Source of the DNA: a virus
Virus record (IMG/VR): IMGVR_UViG_3300024520_000471
Span: 1-24,930 of that record
Direction: 5' to 3' (one strand)
Length of the DNA: 24,930 nt
Numbering within the stretch: the first letter of the stretch is position 1; every line of letters starts with the position of its first letter. The translations under genes and the position numbers were made by a program. The notes under the pieces were generated by a model. The model worked only from the letters and a program-made list of their open reading frames with translations. It was not told the origin of the DNA and ran no database searches. This document shows, in pieces, positions 2,768 to 12,471 of the stretch.

Positions 2768-5700
2768 TTACTTTCCTTTCAAAGTTTTAATTTCGGACTT
2801 TAGTTCGTCAACTTGCGTTGATAGTTCTTTAATTGCGTTTACCATCGCCCAAGTAATAGGGTCATTGTTTACCGAAAGCATACCAAAGTCATTCCGCTCT
2901 GTAACGGCTTCTGGGAAAACTTCCCTGACCTCTTGAGCAATAGCACTAGTGGTCAAGACATCTTGTGGGAGATTTTCTTGACATCCCTCAAACTCAGGAA
3001 TCTCATTCAGTTCTTCATTCGACTTATAAAAGAATGTGCAAGGAACCAGTTGATTAATTTCCTTGAGGCCCTTTTCACTTGGCTTGATGTCTTTCTTGAT
3101 GCGTCTATCAGATGTTGCCGTCCATGCGGTTGAATTATTACCTTGATATACGGCACCAGTGCTAGGTGCAATAAATCCTGTGCTGTCGCCTTTGCCTGCC
3201 TGATTTAAACTTCCAATAACAATTTGATGTGTTCCAGTTGCGCCCGAAGGGTCAGTACCCTGTCCTATCATTACGTTGTACGCACCAGTAGTGATTCCAT
3301 CACCAGCACTATGGCCGACCCCAATATTAGAGGCTCCGGTGGTGACAGCGGTTAACGCAGTATAGCCAAAGGCCGTATTATTAGACGCCGTAGTATTGGC
3401 AATAAGAGCGCCAGCACCCACAGCCGTGGCACTAGCGCCGGTGCAAGCTGCCAACGCCGAATTGCCCATCGCTGTGTTATTGTGGCTAGTAACATTAGCA
3501 CCAAGAGCATTGTTGCCGACTGCTACATTACTAGCACCCGTGGTGTTGGCATCAAGAGTATTGTAGCCCACAGCAACATTACCGGCAGCGGTTGTGTTAG
3601 CAGATAATGCATACATACCCAGAGCAGTGTTATTACTTCCGGTAGTATTAGCATCAAAAGCTAAGTTCCCAACAGCAACATTGAAATTTGCGGTAGTAGT
3701 GGCAACGCCAGAGTTTGTGCCTACAAATACATTGTATGTGCCAGTAGTAATGGCGTTTCCGGCATTTGTGCCGATCCCCACATTATTGGTGCCGGTGGTA
3801 TTGGCAGCAAGAGCATTAGAGCCGACCGCTGTAAGAACGCTTCCGGTAGTATTGGCACCCAAAGCACCATAGCCAAGGGCTGTATTATTAGACGCCGTGG
3901 TGTTGGCATCGAGGGCCGCAAAGCCCACTGCTACGTTACTAGCGCCGGTGGTGTTGGCGTACAAGGCAGCATAGCCAACCGCTGTATTACTATCGGCGGT
4001 GGTACAACTACCGAGCGCATCAAGGCCAATCGCTACATGGTTATCGCCCGTTGTATTGGCATCAAGAGCATTAACCCCGACAGCAACATTGGAACCGCCA
4101 GTGGTATTGGCTATCATAGCACTCGCCCCCACGGCTGTATTGCTTGCTCCGGTAGTATTAGCACCCAGAGTATTAGAGCCGACCGCTGTAAGAACACTTC
4201 CGGTAGTATTGGCAGTCAGCGCAGCATAGCCCAACGCCGTATTACTGTCTGCTGTGGTATTTGCATCAAGAGCAGCATAGCCAATTGCTAGATTGTAATC
4301 GCCGGTAGTATTAGCAACAAGAGCATCATGGCCCATCGCAACATTGCCAGCACCCGTCGTAGTAGCGGACATGGCGTTATAGCCCACCGCTGTATTGGAA
4401 TTACCCGTTTGCAGATACCTTAATGCATAAGCACCAAGACCTGTAGAGTAGGATGGCGTTGTACAAGTGATGCCAGACTCATAACCAAGGAAAGTATTGA
4501 AAGTGCCGGTTGTATGCGCCGCTCCCGCATTTATACCAACAACCGTTAACGCCACTCCGGTTGTATTAGCAGTGCCGGCTGACTTCCCGACCGCTGTATT
4601 ACCAGTGCCGGTGGTATTGAGGCCAAGAGAACCATAGCCCACGCCTGTATTATTAGATGCTGTGGTATTGGCATCTAGTGCGTAAGCACCGACCGCTACG
4701 TTACTACCTCCCGTTGTATTGACACTCATGGCAGCACTGCCAACAGCAGTATTACCAGTGTGAGATTGACCAGAGGCTCCTGTAAGCGCAGAAGTCCCAA
4801 CAGCTACATTGTTGCTTCCCGTAACATTATAATATGAGGCATTGACACCTATAGCGACGTTGGAGCCACCCGTAGTCGAACTGAATGCAGAGGATTGTCC
4901 AACGGCTGTATTAGAAGCTCCGGTGGTATTGGAACCCAGAGCATTGTGTCCAACTCCTGTCCCGGCATTTGCTGTGGTATTTGCATCAAGAGCACTAGAG
5001 CCAACCGCTGTGTTGTAACTCGCCGTGGTATTTGCACCCAAGGCCTGTACGCCGACCGCTGTATTAGTAGCGCCGGTGGTATTGGCATCGAGGGCATAAG
5101 CACCTACAGCTACATTGTTAGATCCCGTGGTATTGGCTATCATAGCACTGTAGCCGACCGCTGCATTAGTAGCGCCGGTGGTATTGGCACCCAAAGTATT
5201 ACTGCCCATACCAACATTACCAGTTGCGGTTGTGGTTACATCACCAGCCCGGAAGCCAAAGAAGTCATTATAACTTCCGGTCGTTATTGCCGCACCAGCT
5301 TCCATACCGACGGCAGTATTTTGCGCTCCGGTAGTGTTAGCAGCCAGAGCACTGGAACCCACGGCTGTGTTGTTAGACGCAGTGGTATTGGCGGTCAGGG
5401 CGCTATCGCCCATTGCTGTATTGTAGTTCCCAGAGCTATTCGTATCTAAGCTATAGCCCCCAACCGCTGTATTACTATAGCCGGTATTAAGTTTAAGAGA
5501 CTCAAAACCAACGGCTGTGTTCGTACCATTTGTAGAAACAGTAGCCAACGCACTAGAACCGATAGCAGTGTTACGGACACCACTAGTATTAGCTCCCAAA
5601 GCATTATAACCAATAGCTACAAGATCAACGGCTGTCGTAACAGCATCCCCAGCCGCATAGCCCACAAAAGTATTATTATCCCCTGTCGTGATGGCTGTAC

Positions 5701-7249
5701 CAGCTTCATCGCCAATGGCGACGTTGTAGTTACCACCTGACTCTATTGAGTTACCGGCGTTGACACCGGCAGCAAAGTTAGATGTACCTGCTGTTTTCTT
5801 TTGTATGTCAGCTACAAAGACTGCATTTCCAGTAACTGTAACTGTAGATGCAAATGTAGCAGCACCTCCTACTGAAGCAGTGCTTTGTAAATGTGTAGCC
5901 CCTACAACTGTAACTGTAGATGCAAATGTAGCAGCACCTCCTACTGAAGCAGTGCTTTGTAAATGTGTAGCCCCTACTACCGTTACAGTAGATGCAAATG
6001 TAGCAGCACCTCCTACTGAAGCAGTGCTTTGTAAATGTGTAGCCCCTACAACTGTAACAGTACTACCAAAGTTAGCAGCACCTCCGACTGTTACTGTACT
6101 TTTTAATGCAGCAGCCCCTACTACTGTAACTGTAGATGCAAAGTTAGCTGCACCTACTACACTAAGACTAGATGCTAAACTCACCGCACCTGCAAAATTA
6201 CTTGTACCACCTACACTTAGATTAGCAGATACAGCAAAGTTACCTGCAACTCTATTATTAACAATAGATGCAGCAATATTAGTTAAGTTAGAACCATCAC
6301 CATAATATGAAGATGCACAGACCGCAGCATTAACAGCTTTTATATTTGTTCCTGCTATAGTAACAGTGCCTGTAACATTAAGAGTACCCGCTATAGATAC
6401 ATTACCAGCAGCCTTTATATTACTTACAGACACATCACCTGATATTTGAGGTCCACTAATATTAGTTATATTTGATCCATCACCATGGTAAGCAGATGCA
6501 CAGACCCTTGCACTGGCAGCTTGTACATTGGCTCCTAATATTGTTACTGTACCTCCTACAACAAGGCCGCCACTGATTGATACATTATTATCAAATGTAG
6601 CTGCGCCTGTTGCCATGAATGTTCCACCAACAGAAGTATTACCAGAGGCATTTAAAGCACCAGAAACTGATACTCCAGCTTTAAAGTTAGCCTGAGAAGT
6701 AAATGTAGCTGCACCAAGAACATTTAAAACACCACTTACTGAAACATTATTATCAAATGTAGCAGCACCTACTACTGTTACAGTAGATGCAAAATGTGCA
6801 GCACCGCCTACACTAAGAGTAGAGGCCATACTTACAGCACCAGCAATGGTTACTGTACCACCTACATTTAAACCACCTGATACAGAAACATTAGAATTAA
6901 AGGTAGCTTCACCATTAACCAAAAGAATATTATTAATCAGGGCATTACTGACACAGATACTTGTAGCAAGACTTGCAGTAACACCACTTAGATTAGAACC
7001 ATCACCATAGAATGCAGATGCACAAACTTTTTGATCTACATGTAAATTAGAAGCAATAGAGGTAGCCCCATCTATAACTAATGAGCCTGTAAACTTAGCA
7101 GAGCCAGTAGCAAGCTGGAAAGAACTATCAGTTCCATCTCCAGTTTCAATAGTCGTAAGACCAGCACTGACGCCAGTATTAGTACTTACACCAACTCTTA
7201 GGAGTTGTTTATAAGTATTAGCAATTGTTTTTCCGGTTAGTTCTGTCAT
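2768..7249 (-). CDS. Giant tail fibre with YadA-like repeats and S74 autochaperone
   Basis: I choose ATG 7249 (overlapping the upstream stop as ATGA), giving 1493 residues. Residues ~1-497 hold beta repeats (TVTVVGAATF type) and three copies of a GDGSN motif preceded by VCAS, common in phage fibres. Residues ~497-1333 are some three dozen repeats of about 22-24 residues of the form NTAVGxxALxANTTGxS, the left-handed beta-roll of trimeric YadA/Hia-type heads. The last ~115 residues are an intramolecular chaperone of the Peptidase S74 type: SDRRIKKDI carries the Ser-Lys pair (S1380, K1385) expected to cut the trimer from the chaperone, and a terminal coiled coil (LSTQVDELKSEIKTLKGK) follows. 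The protein is likely a homotrimeric receptor-binding fibre. The beta-roll DNA is visibly more GC-rich than its flanks. Confidence 0.93.
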   Translation of the reverse strand: MTELTGKTIANTYKQLLRVGVSTNTGVSAGLTTIETGDGTDSSFQLATGSAKFTGSLVIDGATSIASNLHVDQKVCASAFYGDGSNLSGVTASLATSICVSNALINNILLVNGEATFNSNVSVSGGLNVGGTVTIAGAVSMASTLSVGGAAHFASTVTVVGAATFDNNVSVSGVLNVLGAATFTSQANFKAGVSVSGALNASGNTSVGGTFMATGAATFDNNVSISGGLVVGGTVTILGANVQAASARVCASAYHGDGSNITNISGPQISGDVSVSNIKAAGNVSIAGTLNVTGTVTIAGTNIKAVNAAVCASSYYGDGSNLTNIAASIVNNRVAGNFAVSANLSVGGTSNFAGAVSLASSLSVVGAANFASTVTVVGAAALKSTVTVGGAANFGSTVTVVGATHLQSTASVGGAATFASTVTVVGATHLQSTASVGGAATFASTVTVVGATHLQSTASVGGAATFASTVTVTGNAVFVADIQKKTAGTSNFAAGVNAGNSIESGGNYNVAIGDEAGTAITTGDNNTFVGYAAGDAVTTAVDLVAIGYNALGANTSGVRNTAIGSSALATVSTNGTNTAVGFESLKLNTGYSNTAVGGYSLDTNSSGNYNTAMGDSALTANTTASNNTAVGSSALAANTTGAQNTAVGMEAGAAITTGSYNDFFGFRAGDVTTTATGNVGMGSNTLGANTTGATNAAVGYSAMIANTTGSNNVAVGAYALDANTTGATNTAVGVQALGANTTASYNTAVGSSALDANTTANAGTGVGHNALGSNTTGASNTAVGQSSAFSSTTGGSNVAIGVNASYYNVTGSNNVAVGTSALTGASGQSHTGNTAVGSAAMSVNTTGGSNVAVGAYALDANTTASNNTGVGYGSLGLNTTGTGNTAVGKSAGTANTTGVALTVVGINAGAAHTTGTFNTFLGYESGITCTTPSYSTGLGAYALRYLQTGNSNTAVGYNAMSATTTGAGNVAMGHDALVANTTGDYNLAIGYAALDANTTADSNTALGYAALTANTTGSVLTAVGSNTLGANTTGASNTAVGASAMIANTTGGSNVAVGVNALDANTTGDNHVAIGLDALGSCTTADSNTAVGYAALYANTTGASNVAVGFAALDANTTASNNTALGYGALGANTTGSVLTAVGSNALAANTTGTNNVGIGTNAGNAITTGTYNVFVGTNSGVATTTANFNVAVGNLAFDANTTGSNNTALGMYALSANTTAAGNVAVGYNTLDANTTGASNVAVGNNALGANVTSHNNTAMGNSALAACTGASATAVGAGALIANTTASNNTAFGYTALTAVTTGASNIGVGHSAGDGITTGAYNVMIGQGTDPSGATGTHQIVIGSLNQAGKGDSTGFIAPSTGAVYQGNNSTAWTATSDRRIKKDIKPSEKGLKEINQLVPCTFFYKSNEELNEIPEFEGCQENLPQDVLTTSAIAQEVREVFPEAVTERNDFGMLSVNNDPITWAMVNAIKELSTQVDELKSEIKTLKGK
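5847..6062 (-). repeat. Three 72-bp tandem repeats inside the fibre gene
   Basis: Three nearly identical 72-bp units start at 5847, 5919 and 5991. Each encodes 24 residues of the fibre (STVTVVGATHLQ then STASVGGAATFA). They differ at only a few bases near the unit ends (ACAACTGTAACTGTA versus ACTACCGTTACAGTA). The near-identity points to recent in-frame expansion, unlike the well-diverged beta-roll repeats downstream in the same protein. Confidence 0.9.
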
Positions 7250-7521
7250 ATTAGGTTCCAATACTTGTCTGTGTCTTCCCAATTAGTTGTGGCCTGTCCC
7301 CATGTTAGGTTCCTACCACCATTATCTGGTCGTGGATCACGTATCGCAGGGTTATCTCGCACATCAGGTATTTTATTTTGTGGATGATTCTTTAAATCAA
7401 ACTGCCCCTCAAAGTCTGTAGGACATACCAGCATCCCATAACTATTAAAACGCATTATTCTGTGAGGATATACAAAACCACATGTATCACACATGGCTAA
7501 TGCATTTTTATTACTTGCCAT
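7246..7521 (-). CDS. Small zinc-ribbon-like phage protein
   Basis: This 91-residue protein has a CxxC knuckle at residues 11-14 (CDTCG) and a second Cys at 33 in LVCPTDF; relatives I know of have a second CPxC pair, but here the partner position is Asp36, with H20 and H46 as alternative ligands. After this comes a conserved-looking FDLKNHPQNK and a proline-rich tail (DNPAIRDPRPDNGG). The type occurs often in podovirus structural operons between adaptor and fibre genes; its role is unknown, possibly structural. It starts by a TAATG overlap with the gp4-like gene and ends by an ATGA overlap with the fibre, so the three are probably co-translated. Confidence 0.7.
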   Translation of the reverse strand: MASNKNALAMCDTCGFVYPHRIMRFNSYGMLVCPTDFEGQFDLKNHPQNKIPDVRDNPAIRDPRPDNGGRNLTWGQATTNWEDTDKYWNLI

Positions 7522-8195
7522 TACACATACCTTAGTTTAGGTACAACCTTCATGGTTGCTCTTTCCCTATCTTCTTGGAAAGCCCTAGCCAATAATTCCT
7601 CATAGTTACCTTTTAACATTTGTATTCTACCAGCCTCTACACCGGGACGTTTCATTGACATGTAGTATGCCAAACCACAAGTTAGTGGTGGCAGAAAGCG
7701 TGTTGGCATGTCTGCATTCTGTCCAGCAGATTTATCCACATCCTGTAGTTCACTAATACGTTCAATCTTCATTATGTCAGTAGAGTTCTCTGGTATGGGC
7801 CATACCGAAAGAACAGGGTTATCCCTTCCCCTACGTATAGAATACTGAGAGGGTCTGCCTGTCTGTGTCTTGTTAGGAATTATTAAATATTCTTCAGGTG
7901 AGATACGATCTAGTTGTATGTCTGTGCTGTCTCTATTGAGTACAACCTCAAGAGCATCTACAGTGGAGCTACTGAGATCATAGGTTGTTGTACTTGCAAC
8001 AACAGTAACAGCAGTAGTCTCTGTAGTCCACAGAAGAACACCCCTGTTCTGCCAGTCCTTTAGCATAAGGTTTATTGAACGCCGAGCAGAAGCAGGTTCG
8101 TGACCAAGAGTTTCTTCGCCCCCGATCATCTCCATTGCTTCTTGTATGACTTGATCTATATCAAGATTAAAATTATATGTACCTGATACTGCCAT
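7521..8195 (-). CDS. gp4-like head-to-tail adaptor (tail accessory factor)
   Basis: At 224 residues, its size and layout fit the P22 gp4 / packaged-DNA stabilisation group that plugs the portal after packaging and connects it to the tail. Visible signs are the helical N-terminus (IDQVIQEAMEMIGG ... PASARRSINLMLKDWQNRG), a beta section (TTTYDLSSSTVDALEVVL, SIRRGRDNPVLSVWPIP) and a helical C-terminus (CGLAYYMSMKRPGV ... YEELLARAFQEDRERA). The pattern of an N-terminal helix pair ending in LLW followed by a WP-containing strand is typical of this family. It shares TAATG junctions with the Cys-rich gene upstream and the zinc-ribbon gene downstream. Confidence 0.78.
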   Translation of the reverse strand: MAVSGTYNFNLDIDQVIQEAMEMIGGEETLGHEPASARRSINLMLKDWQNRGVLLWTTETTAVTVVASTTTYDLSSSTVDALEVVLNRDSTDIQLDRISPEEYLIIPNKTQTGRPSQYSIRRGRDNPVLSVWPIPENSTDIMKIERISELQDVDKSAGQNADMPTRFLPPLTCGLAYYMSMKRPGVEAGRIQMLKGNYEELLARAFQEDRERATMKVVPKLRYV

Positions 8196-8296
8196 TATTC
8201 TTCATCACATTCACAGTTTTTACAAGAACATTCACATTCCTCTTTATCACAATGACAATCACAATTACAATTACTACATGTGTTCTCTATAGTCAT
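8195..8296 (-). CDS. Cysteine-rich 33-residue metallothionein-like miniprotein
   Basis: A short frame starting at ATG 8296 encodes 33 residues, ten of them cysteine (positions 7, 10, 12, 14, 16, 21, 23, 25, 28, 30). The spacing is CxxCxCxCxC then CxCxC then CxC, with one His, no aromatic residue, and many Asp and Glu. This is the composition of small metal-thiolate proteins such as metallothioneins, though I do not recognise a named family. That it is a real gene is supported by TAATG stop-start overlaps at both ends, like its neighbours. All ten Cys codons are TGT. A metal-binding or disulfide-rich role is inferred; the alternative is a low-complexity linker that happens to be open. Confidence 0.65.
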   Translation of the reverse strand: MTIENTCSNCNCDCHCDKEECECSCKNCECDEE

Positions 8297-8439
8297 TAAC
8301 GTCCTACTTTCTTCATTGCCTTTTTATGGGCTGATGCAAAACTGCTCCCCTTTTTCATTGTAGCCGTCATGCTAGAAATATGTTTCTTGGTATGATGTTT
8401 AGCATGTTTCTTCAATTTAGATGTTATCTTTTTTGGCAT
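8296..8439 (-). CDS. Small basic protein (47 aa)
   Basis: ATG 8439 to TAA 8296 gives 47 residues, very rich in Lys and His (KLKKHAKHHTKKHIS), ending in SFASAHKKAMKKVGR. The C-terminal pattern SF-x2-AHK-x-AMK-x-VG resembles small basic proteins I have seen in aquatic phage structural operons. The isoelectric point must be very high, so DNA or RNA binding is the simplest reading: a candidate packaged nucleoid or ejection protein. It starts two bases after the upstream TGA stop and overlaps the Cys-rich gene by TAATG. Confidence 0.7.
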   Translation of the reverse strand: MPKKITSKLKKHAKHHTKKHISSMTATMKKGSSFASAHKKAMKKVGR

Positions 8440-8441
8440 TT

Positions 8442-8642
8442 TCACATTACTCTTTTAGCTTTGCTACCATATGTATATTTATGTGTTTCTTTTAAATAGT
8501 TCACAAGTGATTTCCAATAGTCATCCCAACATGTATAATCTTTTTTAAGAGGTTTAATAAGACTTTCATCTATTAAACTATAATCATCTTCGCCTCTATC
8601 TACAGACTCTTGATATCGTTTTAAGAACTCTGCATCAACCAT
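8442..8642 (-). CDS. Hypothetical protein (66 aa)
   Basis: A 66-residue soluble protein (MVDAEFLKRYQESVDRG ... YTCWDDYWKSLVNYLKETH), mixed charge and predicted helical, with aromatic clusters in the middle and a basic end (SKAKRVM). It begins by TAATG overlap with the Lys-rich 425-residue protein and ends three bases before the 47-residue basic gene. Its first residues (MVDAEF) resemble those of the 16-codon frame at 9922-9972 (MVDADY). No known family recognised; existence as a gene is supported by tight packing on both sides. Confidence 0.6.
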   Translation of the reverse strand: MVDAEFLKRYQESVDRGEDDYSLIDESLIKPLKKDYTCWDDYWKSLVNYLKETHKYTYGSKAKRVM

Positions 8643-9919
8643 TAATACAATTTATCTGAATATGTGGCTCTACCAAAACCCCGTTTAGCCGCACCTGCTC
8701 CACGAACAGAGCCACCCATATTTCTTTTTACTTTACCACCATGTTTATGTCCCCTAAGTTCTTTTAAATCTGCTTTAAGATTATCAAGATCAAATGCGGC
8801 GGGATCGTCTGGGTCCATTGGATATTCCCTCTCTTCAATTCTTTCTAATATTGTTTCTAAATCTAATCCAGTACTAGACCCTTCACCCCTTGGATTACTT
8901 GTTATAGTTTTACCGGGACTAGAAGAACCAACTCTTTCCTCATCTCCTTTAGTTACTGGTGCTACAGCAGAAGATATGGATTTTTTAGGTAGTTTAATAG
9001 TGGATTTTGGTGGTGATGCAACAGGTGGAGTACTTTTAATAGGACTCGGTTTAGGTTTAGCTGGAAGAGGTAAAGCTGCTTTAGGTTTAGCTGGAAGAGG
9101 TAAAGCTGCTTTAGGTTTAGCTGGAAGAGGTAAAGCTTCTTTAGGTTTAGCCGGAACTTTTTTAGGTTTCTCTGCATTTTGCCTTGCAATATTAATTGCT
9201 GCAATTCCTCCTGTAGCGCCTATTCTTAATTTATCTGCAGTACTCAAAGGTTTTCTACCAGCTACATTAGCAGCCGTTACAGCTTTTTGTTGTTTAGTAG
9301 CAGTACGAGAAGCTGTACGAGATTTTGATGCTAAGTTTTTAGCTTTTGTAATTTGTCTTTTAACATTCGATGCTGTTTTTTTTGCTACTGCTTGTGATGG
9401 TGGTGTATATACTTGTTTCCCTTTTTTGGCTGTCCATTTTGCTTCTGTTGCTTTCTTCTGTGCTGCATCAGCAGTTTTCTTTGCTGCATCAGCAGCTTTT
9501 TTTGCTACTTTTTTCTTTACCGTTGCGCCAGTTAATTTTTTGATACCTTCTGCTGCTGCTTTTGCAGCCCTAGCACCTCTAACTATTAGACCTCCTACAG
9601 GAATAGCACTGGCTGCTGCCCAAGCTGCTTCAACATTGGTTTTACTTCTATCAGTTTTCATCTGATTCATGGCAATTTTTTTACCAAGCTTTTTTGCTGC
9701 GCTTTCCGACTTACCCTCTTTTCGAGCTTTAGTAGCAGCTTTTTCACCTTTAGCTATTGCTGCTTTTTCTGCTGGAGTACCTTTAACAGTTTTATCTACA
9801 GTTTTTCTAGCGGCATCTCTTGAGGTACGACCTGTTCTTTTTTTGAGAGCCATATACTCTGCAAATCTTTTAGGATTTTTTGCTTTCATTTTTTGTAATC
9901 GTGTAAGTTTTTCAGCCAT
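8642..9919 (-). CDS. Lys/Ala-rich basic structural protein with C-terminal GG-VRG tail
   Basis: The protein has 425 residues. Residues 1-250 are dominated by Lys, Ala, Thr and Arg in long helical stretches reminiscent of histone H1-like or DNA-condensing proteins (KKKVAKKAADAAKKTADAAQ). Around residues 258-290 there is a proline-rich repeat of ten residues (AALPLPAKPK), encoded by 30-bp tandem repeats. After a Ser/Pro-rich linker and an acidic patch (DLETILERIEEREYPMDPDDP) the C-terminus carries HKHGGKVKRNMGGSVRG then AGAAKRGFG, a basic Gly-rich tail motif that recurs in other proteins here. No enzyme motif is visible. I infer a virion-internal, DNA-associated or injected protein; the family is not known to me. 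Confidence 0.7.
   Translation of the reverse strand: MAEKLTRLQKMKAKNPKRFAEYMALKKRTGRTSRDAARKTVDKTVKGTPAEKAAIAKGEKAATKARKEGKSESAAKKLGKKIAMNQMKTDRSKTNVEAAWAAASAIPVGGLIVRGARAAKAAAEGIKKLTGATVKKKVAKKAADAAKKTADAAQKKATEAKWTAKKGKQVYTPPSQAVAKKTASNVKRQITKAKNLASKSRTASRTATKQQKAVTAANVAGRKPLSTADKLRIGATGGIAAINIARQNAEKPKKVPAKPKEALPLPAKPKAALPLPAKPKAALPLPAKPKPSPIKSTPPVASPPKSTIKLPKKSISSAVAPVTKGDEERVGSSSPGKTITSNPRGEGSSTGLDLETILERIEEREYPMDPDDPAAFDLDNLKADLKELRGHKHGGKVKRNMGGSVRGAGAAKRGFGRATYSDKLY
9051..9150 (-). repeat. 30-bp tandem repeats encoding AALPLPAKPK
   Basis: A 30-bp unit begins at 9051, 9081 and 9111, with a partial fourth at 9141. Copies one and two are identical and copy three differs by one base. The repeats keep the frame and lengthen a Pro/Lys-rich spacer in the Lys-rich protein, so copy number can vary without breaking the gene. 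Confidence 0.9.
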
Positions 9920-10984: not shown

Positions 10985-11450
10985 AACTATTATCGACTAC
11001 CTGTCCACCTGTCATGCGATAAGTAATAGCCCCACCTTTTTTGTAGCCCTTTACTTTACCACCGCCTTTTGCTTCCATTTCTACAAATGGCTCAAAAGGT
11101 TTTCTTTTTTTTCGTTTAGGTGCCAATTTCTTTTCTTCTAATTTACGAAGTCTCTCTAAACTTTTAAATGTTTCGTCTATAGGAGGCATAGAACGACCAC
11201 TAGCACCCGGTGGCATAGGAGGCATAGGAGGCATAGGAGGCATAGAACGACCACTAGCACCCGGTGGCATAGGATTTTTTGTAACCAAACTACGTTCTAA
11301 TTTAGGCAATCTACCTCTTGTTGGAATACCTTTTCTTTCTTTCTCAACATCTTGAAGCCATTCAGTAGGATACTTATATTTTTTTAAATCTAAGGGTCTT
11401 CCCTTTTTAGTAGTAGGAATTGATATCTTTTTACGTCTTGAAGATGGCAT
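10977..11450 (-). CDS. Basic Pro/Met-repeat hypothetical protein
   Basis: 157 residues, basic, with an N-terminal SRRKKISIPTTKKGRPLDLKKYKYP segment and a low-complexity middle built from MPP repeats and two copies of MPPGASGRSMPP. It then has a charged helix (ETFKSLERLRKLEEKKLAPKRKKRK) and a Gly/Lys-rich end (EAKGGGKVKGYKKGGAITYRM then TGGQ), again the GG-K-V motif shared by neighbours. TAATG overlap joins it to the adaptor gene upstream. Unknown function. Confidence 0.62.
   Translation of the reverse strand: MPSSRRKKISIPTTKKGRPLDLKKYKYPTEWLQDVEKERKGIPTRGRLPKLERSLVTKNPMPPGASGRSMPPMPPMPPMPPGASGRSMPPIDETFKSLERLRKLEEKKLAPKRKKRKPFEPFVEMEAKGGGKVKGYKKGGAITYRMTGGQVVDNSYD
11181..11274 (-). repeat. 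40-bp direct repeat with GGAGGCATA spacer repeats
   Basis: A 40-bp segment at 11181-11220 recurs exactly at 11235-11274, separated by short GGCATAGGA units. In the protein these give MPPGASGRSMPP twice with MPP repeats between. Copy number of the 9-bp units is likely variable by slippage. Confidence 0.85.
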
Positions 11451-12127
11451 TATGGTGTCCCCTGTTGTAATGTATCAGGACCACCGGCAGGTGATGCAGC
11501 AACTGCCATGTCATCCTGACGTGTCCTTCTAGCTTGGTTTCTAAGTGTGGTGACTGCTGCTTGATATTGTGACTGCCATGCAGTAAGTGTATTCCAATCC
11601 TTCATGTACATTGTAGCTTCCATCATTGCAGCATAGAATAAAGCATCATAACAGTAATTACTAAAATAATTCTGTGTCGTAACACTTGTACCTGTGGCAG
11701 AAGCTAATGCTAGTGGTTGTGAAACTGTTTGTATTTCTCCTGTCAATGTAGACGTAGGAGTTGGCACGATAAATATAGAAGTATTATTCTTACGTGCATA
11801 GTAACGTGGTACACCCGTAGAAGAACTCACGGGCCAGTAGTCGTTACAATATTCAATTGTTCTTTGTAATAGATTAGTTTTAATGCTGGAAGCACTTGTG
11901 GTAAAGTGTACATTACGTACTATACGTACCCTATCTCCCAGAGATACAACTGCATTACCGCCTGTAAGCGTAATAGCTGAATACTCATCCAAGCCTGAGT
12001 CATCAATATCCTTGGTTAGACGTAGCTCTGATCTGCTAATGAAATTAGGTATTTCAGCAGTAAACTCAGTGCCGTCATTCTCAGTGGTATTAATGATGGC
12101 TGTTTTTAAATCAGAATACGTAGCCAT
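11450..12127 (-). CDS. Head-tail adaptor / tail-tube-A-like protein
   Basis: I place the start at ATG 12127 (MATYSDLKTAIINTTEND), two bases after the upstream stop, not at the longer in-frame start at 12157 that overlaps it. The product is 225 residues. An N-terminal helix region (FISRSELRLTKDI) leads into a beta domain (AVVSLGDRVRIVRNVHF, GVPRYYARKNNTSIFIVPTP) and a C-terminal helical part (CYDALFYAAMMEATMYMKDW, YQAAVTTLRNQARR). This pattern (RLTKD, VPRYYA, IVPTPT, two C-terminal helices) is typical of podovirus proteins that sit between portal and tail (T7 gp11-like or gp6-like adaptors). It follows the capsid genes, as expected. Confidence 0.72.
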   Translation of the reverse strand: MATYSDLKTAIINTTENDGTEFTAEIPNFISRSELRLTKDIDDSGLDEYSAITLTGGNAVVSLGDRVRIVRNVHFTTSASSIKTNLLQRTIEYCNDYWPVSSSTGVPRYYARKNNTSIFIVPTPTSTLTGEIQTVSQPLALASATGTSVTTQNYFSNYCYDALFYAAMMEATMYMKDWNTLTAWQSQYQAAVTTLRNQARRTRQDDMAVAASPAGGPDTLQQGTP

Positions 12128-12129
12128 AA

Positions 12130-12471
12130 TTAGCCCACAAATGCTGTCAAGACACACCCATCAGTAGGACCAGATACGCTGACAACACCATAGACAGGAA
12201 CACCAAGTTCCCCCATGTAAATGTCAGTTGCTTCATTGGCAGCTACTTGAAATTTAATTGCAGTACCTTCTGCTGTTTTATTGGTAATCTGCCTTTGACC
12301 CTTAATTGAATAAGAACCGGCAGCGGTAGCCAATGCATGTATAGCCAAGATACGGGTGGTTGACGGAGTAGGGCTGTCACCTGTACCATTACTACCTACA
12401 GTCGTATCATCTTCTACATATGTAAGAACTGCGTCTGCTGTTGCAATCCCGACTTTAATATTTGTTGTCAT
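12130..12471 (-). CDS. Small head protein (candidate decoration)
   Basis: 113 residues, mostly beta-prone with many Thr, Ala, Gly and Val (KVGIATADAVLTYV, GVPVYGVVSVSGPTDG). No catalytic motif, membrane segment or coiled coil. Its place directly after the major capsid gene, a strong ribosome site (AAGGGAG) and coupling to the adaptor gene suggest a capsid decoration or head-completion protein. No family recognised with confidence. Confidence 0.6.
   Translation of the reverse strand: MTTNIKVGIATADAVLTYVEDDTTVGSNGTGDSPTPSTTRILAIHALATAAGSYSIKGQRQITNKTAEGTAIKFQVAANEATDIYMGELGVPVYGVVSVSGPTDGCVLTAFVG

Follow-up and report, generated by a model that had tools for sequence, protein, structure and literature searches.

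A 33-codon cysteine-rich gene joined to a phage tail adaptor gene is a candidate phage metallothionein

What does a 33-codon, cysteine-rich reading frame do in the tail operon of a phage? The original prediction was of a metallothionein-like protein, lying between adaptor genes, that could bind zinc or iron in the virion or in the infected cell. The window, that is, the whole stretch of DNA analysed, is a 24,930-base IMG/VR virus record. Its minus-strand operon encodes terminase, portal, major head protein, two SU10_adaptor-type proteins, a putative zinc-ribbon protein and a long Peptidase_S74 fibre. Judged by terminase and adaptor, the closest isolate relatives are the Pelagibacter phages HTVC027P and HTVC023P, phage 023Pt_psg01 and DSL-LC04, at only about 40% identity. 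The features around the frame are:

8195-8296, minus strand: gene for a 33-residue, ten-cysteine metallothionein-like microprotein (ATG at 8296-8294, TAA at 8197-8195), based on translation, homologues and dN/dS
8294-8298, minus strand: TAATG stop-start overlap between the small basic protein gene and the microprotein gene, read from the sequence and found likewise in many relatives
8193-8197, minus strand: TAATG stop-start overlap between the microprotein and tail adaptor genes, read from the sequence; TAATGGC at this junction in relatives
8302-8305, minus strand: AGGA, a Shine-Dalgarno-like string 5 nt 5′ of the microprotein ATG, within the end of the upstream gene
8296-8439, minus strand: small basic protein (MPKKITSKLKKHAKHHTKKH...), whose gene immediately precedes that of the microprotein; weak match to phrog_31838 (E 1.3e-4)
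7521-8195, minus strand: tail adaptor of the SU10_adaptor family (Pfam PF24175, E 1.5e-11), directly downstream of the microprotein; 80 relatives kept
7246-7521, minus strand: putative zinc-ribbon protein following the adaptor; its motif, CDTCGF...CPTDFEG, is present in most relatives
11450-12157, minus strand: second SU10_adaptor protein (Pfam E 7.7e-20)

Elsewhere in the window, positions 2768-7282 encode the fibre, a protein of 1504 aa with repeated NTAVG / GGAATFASTVTVVGATHLQSTASV units and a C-terminal Peptidase_S74 chaperone domain. Positions 8642-9919 encode a Lys/Ala-rich protein of 425 aa with tandem PAKPKAALPL repeats.

Translation of the minus strand from 8296 to 8195 gave MTIENTCSNCNCDCHCDKEECECSCKNCECDEE followed by a stop, a frame of 102 bp. 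The product contains ten cysteines (30%), one histidine and no aromatic residue, and has a net charge of -8. It is therefore small, with at least about 20-30% Cys in CxC and CxxC motifs and few or no aromatics, as is usual for metallothioneins. The TAA of the upstream gene (8298-8296) overlaps the microprotein ATG by one base, and the microprotein TAA overlaps the ATG of the adaptor gene (8195-8193) in the same way. The AGGA at 8305-8302 is a plausible candidate for the ribosome site of the gene. The length, composition and overlaps on both sides given in the original prediction were thus borne out by translation, and its coordinates were right; the strand, which it did not state, is minus. 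Its placing of the gene between adaptor genes holds loosely, as the two SU10_adaptor genes lie on either side at 7521-8195 and 11450-12157, but the immediate upstream neighbour is the small basic protein. When the window was simulated 400 times with a dinucleotide-Markov model, frames with at least ten Cys and at least 25% Cys occurred at a mean of 0.0, against one in the real window, and frames with at least six Cys at a mean of 0.015 per simulated window. Judged by its sequence, the frame is a real gene and not a product of chance.

A search with the adaptor yielded 80 relatives, and the slot before the adaptor was read in the 79 whose adaptor start was known. A full cysteine-rich frame of the CxCHC type, ending exactly in TAATGGC, was present in 11 of these 79 unselected relatives, and a short 19-residue relative with five cysteines in a further four. 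Where the upstream sequence could be read, most of the remaining loci have another protein, usually small and basic, that runs straight into the adaptor start. DNA patterns matching CHCDKExC or less strict versions of it, and a profile, were then used for further scans. With these targeted scans the frame expected at the matching place in related phages was found in about 36 IMG/VR contigs in all, near-copies among them. Frameshifts, loss of the ATG and unconserved cysteines would each speak against the gene; in the relatives the ATG and the reading frame are intact, and the TAATG junctions and the placing of the cysteines are retained. The junction with the adaptor gene is constant across members, and the upstream neighbour is variable, other small basic proteins taking its place in relatives.

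The short form, MVDKYCSKCKCKKCKCGKK, occupies the same slot before the adaptor (L040, L048, L049, L108-L110 and L112-L114; also L031, L111 and L115). It is basic, with a net charge of +5 to +7, and has no histidine. It looks like an internally deleted version of the microprotein. With five ligands it could hardly hold a full metal cluster, and this counts against the metallothionein reading. In another adaptor clade (L057, at about 4639-4917, and L058-L061), two different small cysteine-rich frames precede the adaptor, MITCKNCGYDSHCG... and MCNNEECSNSHCTCDPCICRIENLCECC...; on visual inspection the latter looks similar to the CxCxxCxC beginning of bacterial metallothioneins, and it had no Pfam match. 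The slot itself (8296-8642 in the window, and in related loci) is a swap zone for very basic small proteins of the AKHHTKKH, MSLKEWFGKG and MAVAKKRDPKKWAAAK types, which are perhaps DNA-binding.

Close pairs of microprotein genes differed with dN of 0.01-0.19 and dS mostly several-fold higher; the exceptions were L085-L091, where the two were nearly equal, and L035-L046, which differed by one replacement and had no silent differences. In eight disjoint pairs (window-L255, L035-L068, L044-L052, L019-L022, L078-L086, L062-L085, L212-L201 and L181-L204) the differences at codon positions 1, 2 and 3 were 26, 21 and 61 of 108, with a binomial p of about 7e-7 that is approximate because tree branches may be common to some pairs. 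These substitution counts show purifying selection on the frame among closely related members.

Among the differences at cysteine codons, 16 were silent TGT/TGC swaps and one changed the residue, to histidine. This was C21 in L255, a two-base change (TGT vs CAT) found despite an adaptor 99.6% identical to that of the window. An alignment of 29 members, in which the putative first residue of the L178/L235 form was set to Met by hand, contained ten Cys columns. Gaps aside, all eight replacements in these columns were His, and they fell in three columns: column 12 in L084, column 21 in L255 and column 34 in six rows (the 'HSxWGExTVDME' group). The cysteines are thus conserved, and are replaced only by another metal ligand, as would be expected of a metallothionein. 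Outside the cysteines, the CHCDKE block is conserved across members, the loops vary freely, and the Cys count is 5, 8, 9, 10 or 11.

A change from Cys to His takes two base changes and cannot be reached by one. Random drift or loss of a disulfide would be expected to yield Ser, Arg, Gly, Tyr or Phe at the Cys columns instead. Replacement solely by His, two bases away, therefore points to metal ligands rather than to disulfides or a regulatory leader. The exchange fits coordination of a divalent metal, and we infer the metal itself from it; of the two metals originally offered, a zinc-type ion would fit better than iron. It also makes it distinctly unlikely that the protein acts mainly in redox chemistry, its cysteines forming disulfides or a thiol sink against oxidative stress with metal a secondary matter. 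The high Cys content would suit such a role, and metallothionein thiols are known to scavenge oxidants too (PMC7387436), but exchange exclusively to His keeps a metal ligand and loses the disulfide or thiol.

The distribution of the gene was patchy. A structural part of the tail adaptor should accompany every such adaptor, and the microprotein gene was absent from most of the 79 relatives, including some with adaptors 92-95% identical. An adaptor tree of 76 rows needs 8 changes to explain where every form of the gene is missing, at least six of them forced by well supported branches, and 11 for the full form alone, at least nine of them forced. The targeted searches enriched the sample behind these counts in carriers, and instead of gain and loss the pattern could reflect recombination between adaptor and slot. 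In three relatives of 55-57 kb the whole contig was free of a copy. As with moron-like genes, the insertion between core genes is clean, and the neighbours are alike with and without it. Because it is patchy on the adaptor tree and absent from the three 55-57 kb relatives, the gene is, on these comparisons, an optional accessory cassette. The putative zinc-ribbon protein after the adaptor, which has the conserved motif CDxCGF...CPxDFEG and no Pfam match, was considered as a neighbour dependent on the microprotein; this was unsupported, as its gene is there among relatives both with and without the microprotein gene.

Homologues were also found in a second setting. Seven contigs (L084, L104, L148, L165, L184, L178 and L235) encode a longer form with a common tail, D-I/V-P-x-S/T-F, and a T4-type lysozyme gene follows at once or a short way downstream. 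The long-form homologues with the conserved C-terminal tail, near the T4-type lysozyme, include:

L084, 1442-1582
L104, 5825-5965
L148, 3035-3178

Genes recognised by eye as clamp-loader-, gp46/47- and DNA-polymerase-like lie on the L104 contig, and by their gene content the long-form contigs look like T4-like phages. Given this second context, the microprotein is not a fixed part of the adaptor.

A location in the virion, the other site originally proposed, is unlikely on this evidence. The microprotein would there sit in the tail or head, either carrying metal in a Ferrojan-horse-like manner or stapling the adaptor ring through metal. Its gene does lie in a late structural operon and in this phage group is always joined to the adaptor gene by TAATG, and it has been suggested elsewhere that phage tails contain iron (the Ferrojan horse, discussed in PMC12753301). 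A tail part would hardly be missing from close relatives whose tail genes are the same and from the whole of three longer contigs, undergo at least six gains or losses, and adjoin lysozyme in T4-like phages. The patchiness and the lysozyme-side context instead suggest that the protein has an accessory role inside the infected cell.

We give hardly any credence to a leader or attenuator peptide, in which the run of Cys codons would tune adaptor translation through charged tRNA-Cys and the product would be unimportant. Ten Cys codons do stand just ahead of a TAATG-coupled gene, but conservation extends beyond the cysteines, for instance to the CHCDKE block, cysteines change to His, most adaptors have no microprotein gene ahead of them, and the C-terminal tail is conserved in homologues that precede an unrelated gene. 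At the microprotein gene there was no Rfam match, no RNA fold (z -0.25) and no terminator-like site.

Known families were searched for relatives of the microprotein. Five members had no match in Pfam up to E 10, although the composition filters of HMMER handicap Cys-rich queries; there was accordingly no profile match to the bacterial metallothionein family PF02069 (SmtA/BmtA type). NCBIfam and PHROG gave no match for microprotein members up to E 10, and a PDB profile search was empty; a PDB match at E 1.2 was judged to be chance. An AlphaFold model, built without metals, had a pLDDT of 65, a confidence too low to be informative on the fold. No match in isolate phages was found by tblastn, where the BLAST low-complexity filter may hide one, and the longer homologue gave only matches at E 6. 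Profile searches around the lysozyme or adaptor of C48C1, Aegir, HTVC200P, HTVC023P, DSL-LC04 and HTVC027P detected no homologue. In GTDB species genomes, 24 pattern matches were mostly startless, too short or unlike the family, and were judged to be chance. A profile search of 398 + 198 genomes (596, two phyla) produced no convincing cellular homologue; the same profile recovers 8 of 11 viral records. As no cellular homologue was found in the sampled bacterial genomes, the gene is not evidently borrowed from a host. A phrase search of an open-access library found no paper on a viral or phage metallothionein.

A small, optional and swappable gene with frequent gain and loss might also encode a zinc-folded knuckle that binds a host protein or nucleic acid, for takeover or counter-defence, and does not buffer metal. 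Conservation of the CHCDKE block beyond what the ligands alone require would agree with this. We consider it very unlikely, as 11 ligands in 33 residues leave little surface for a specific interface, and the freely varying loops and the changing Cys count speak against one.

The reading we prefer, with a probability of about 0.62, is that the microprotein is a phage-specific metallothionein-like protein acting as a late metal buffer in the infected cell. The metal-binding part of the original prediction is supported by conserved position, dN below dS and replacement of Cys by His only; its placing in the virion is not. Among known clusters, those of a Pseudomonas metallothionein (PflQ2 MT) are Zn3Cys9His and Cd4Cys9His (PMC7387436), the animal domains are M3Cys9 and M4Cys11, and His is common among bacterial metallothioneins (PMC10612145). 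Ten Cys and one His fall within this ligand range.

In the mechanism we propose, the microprotein would be made by translational coupling on the late transcript of the tail genes. Its ten Cys and one His would wrap a small divalent-metal cluster, probably of about three or four Zn(II), modelled on bacterial Zn3Cys9His or animal M4Cys11. The soluble protein would then buffer or hand over zinc-type metal late in infection, for instance metal released by the breakdown of host proteins, to clients such as zinc-ribbon virion proteins, the putative one encoded beside the adaptor among them. It may also blunt metal or oxidant stress. The gene would be an optional fitness cassette, dispensable for the tail.

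We put forward more tentatively, at slightly under even odds, a virus-born metallothionein family with no known cellular ancestors, spread over marine podovirus-like and T4-like phages and controlling zinc-type metals in late infection. Should the protein bind metal, marine phages would possess metallothioneins of their own, of a class unmatched in the family libraries searched, and phage infection would be tied directly to the handling of trace metals (zinc, cadmium, copper) in the sea. The analysis also indicates that a selected gene of 33 codons can be validated by positional conservation and Cys-to-His ligand exchange alone.

Compared with known systems, the microprotein resembles SmtA, BmtA and PflQ2 MT (Metallothio_Pro) in being small and Cys-rich, with CxC motifs and a His as extra ligand. 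Unlike them it is shorter, has no profile match and no adjoining SmtB-type regulator, and is encoded in a phage late operon. With the animal M3Cys9 and M4Cys11 domains it shares a single small domain, a Cys number in the 9-11 range (here ten, plus one His as ligand) and an almost complete lack of aromatics; it differs from animal metallothioneins in its conserved His, in consisting of one domain only and in having no Pfam or PDB profile match. MymT is a short mycobacterial Cys-rich copper metallothionein; its likeness to the microprotein, which had no NCBIfam match, is by description only (short, Cys-rich). The gene behaves like phage morons and auxiliary metabolic genes in being optional, patchy and cleanly inserted between core genes, and differs from those derived from hosts in having no homologue in the sampled bacterial genomes.
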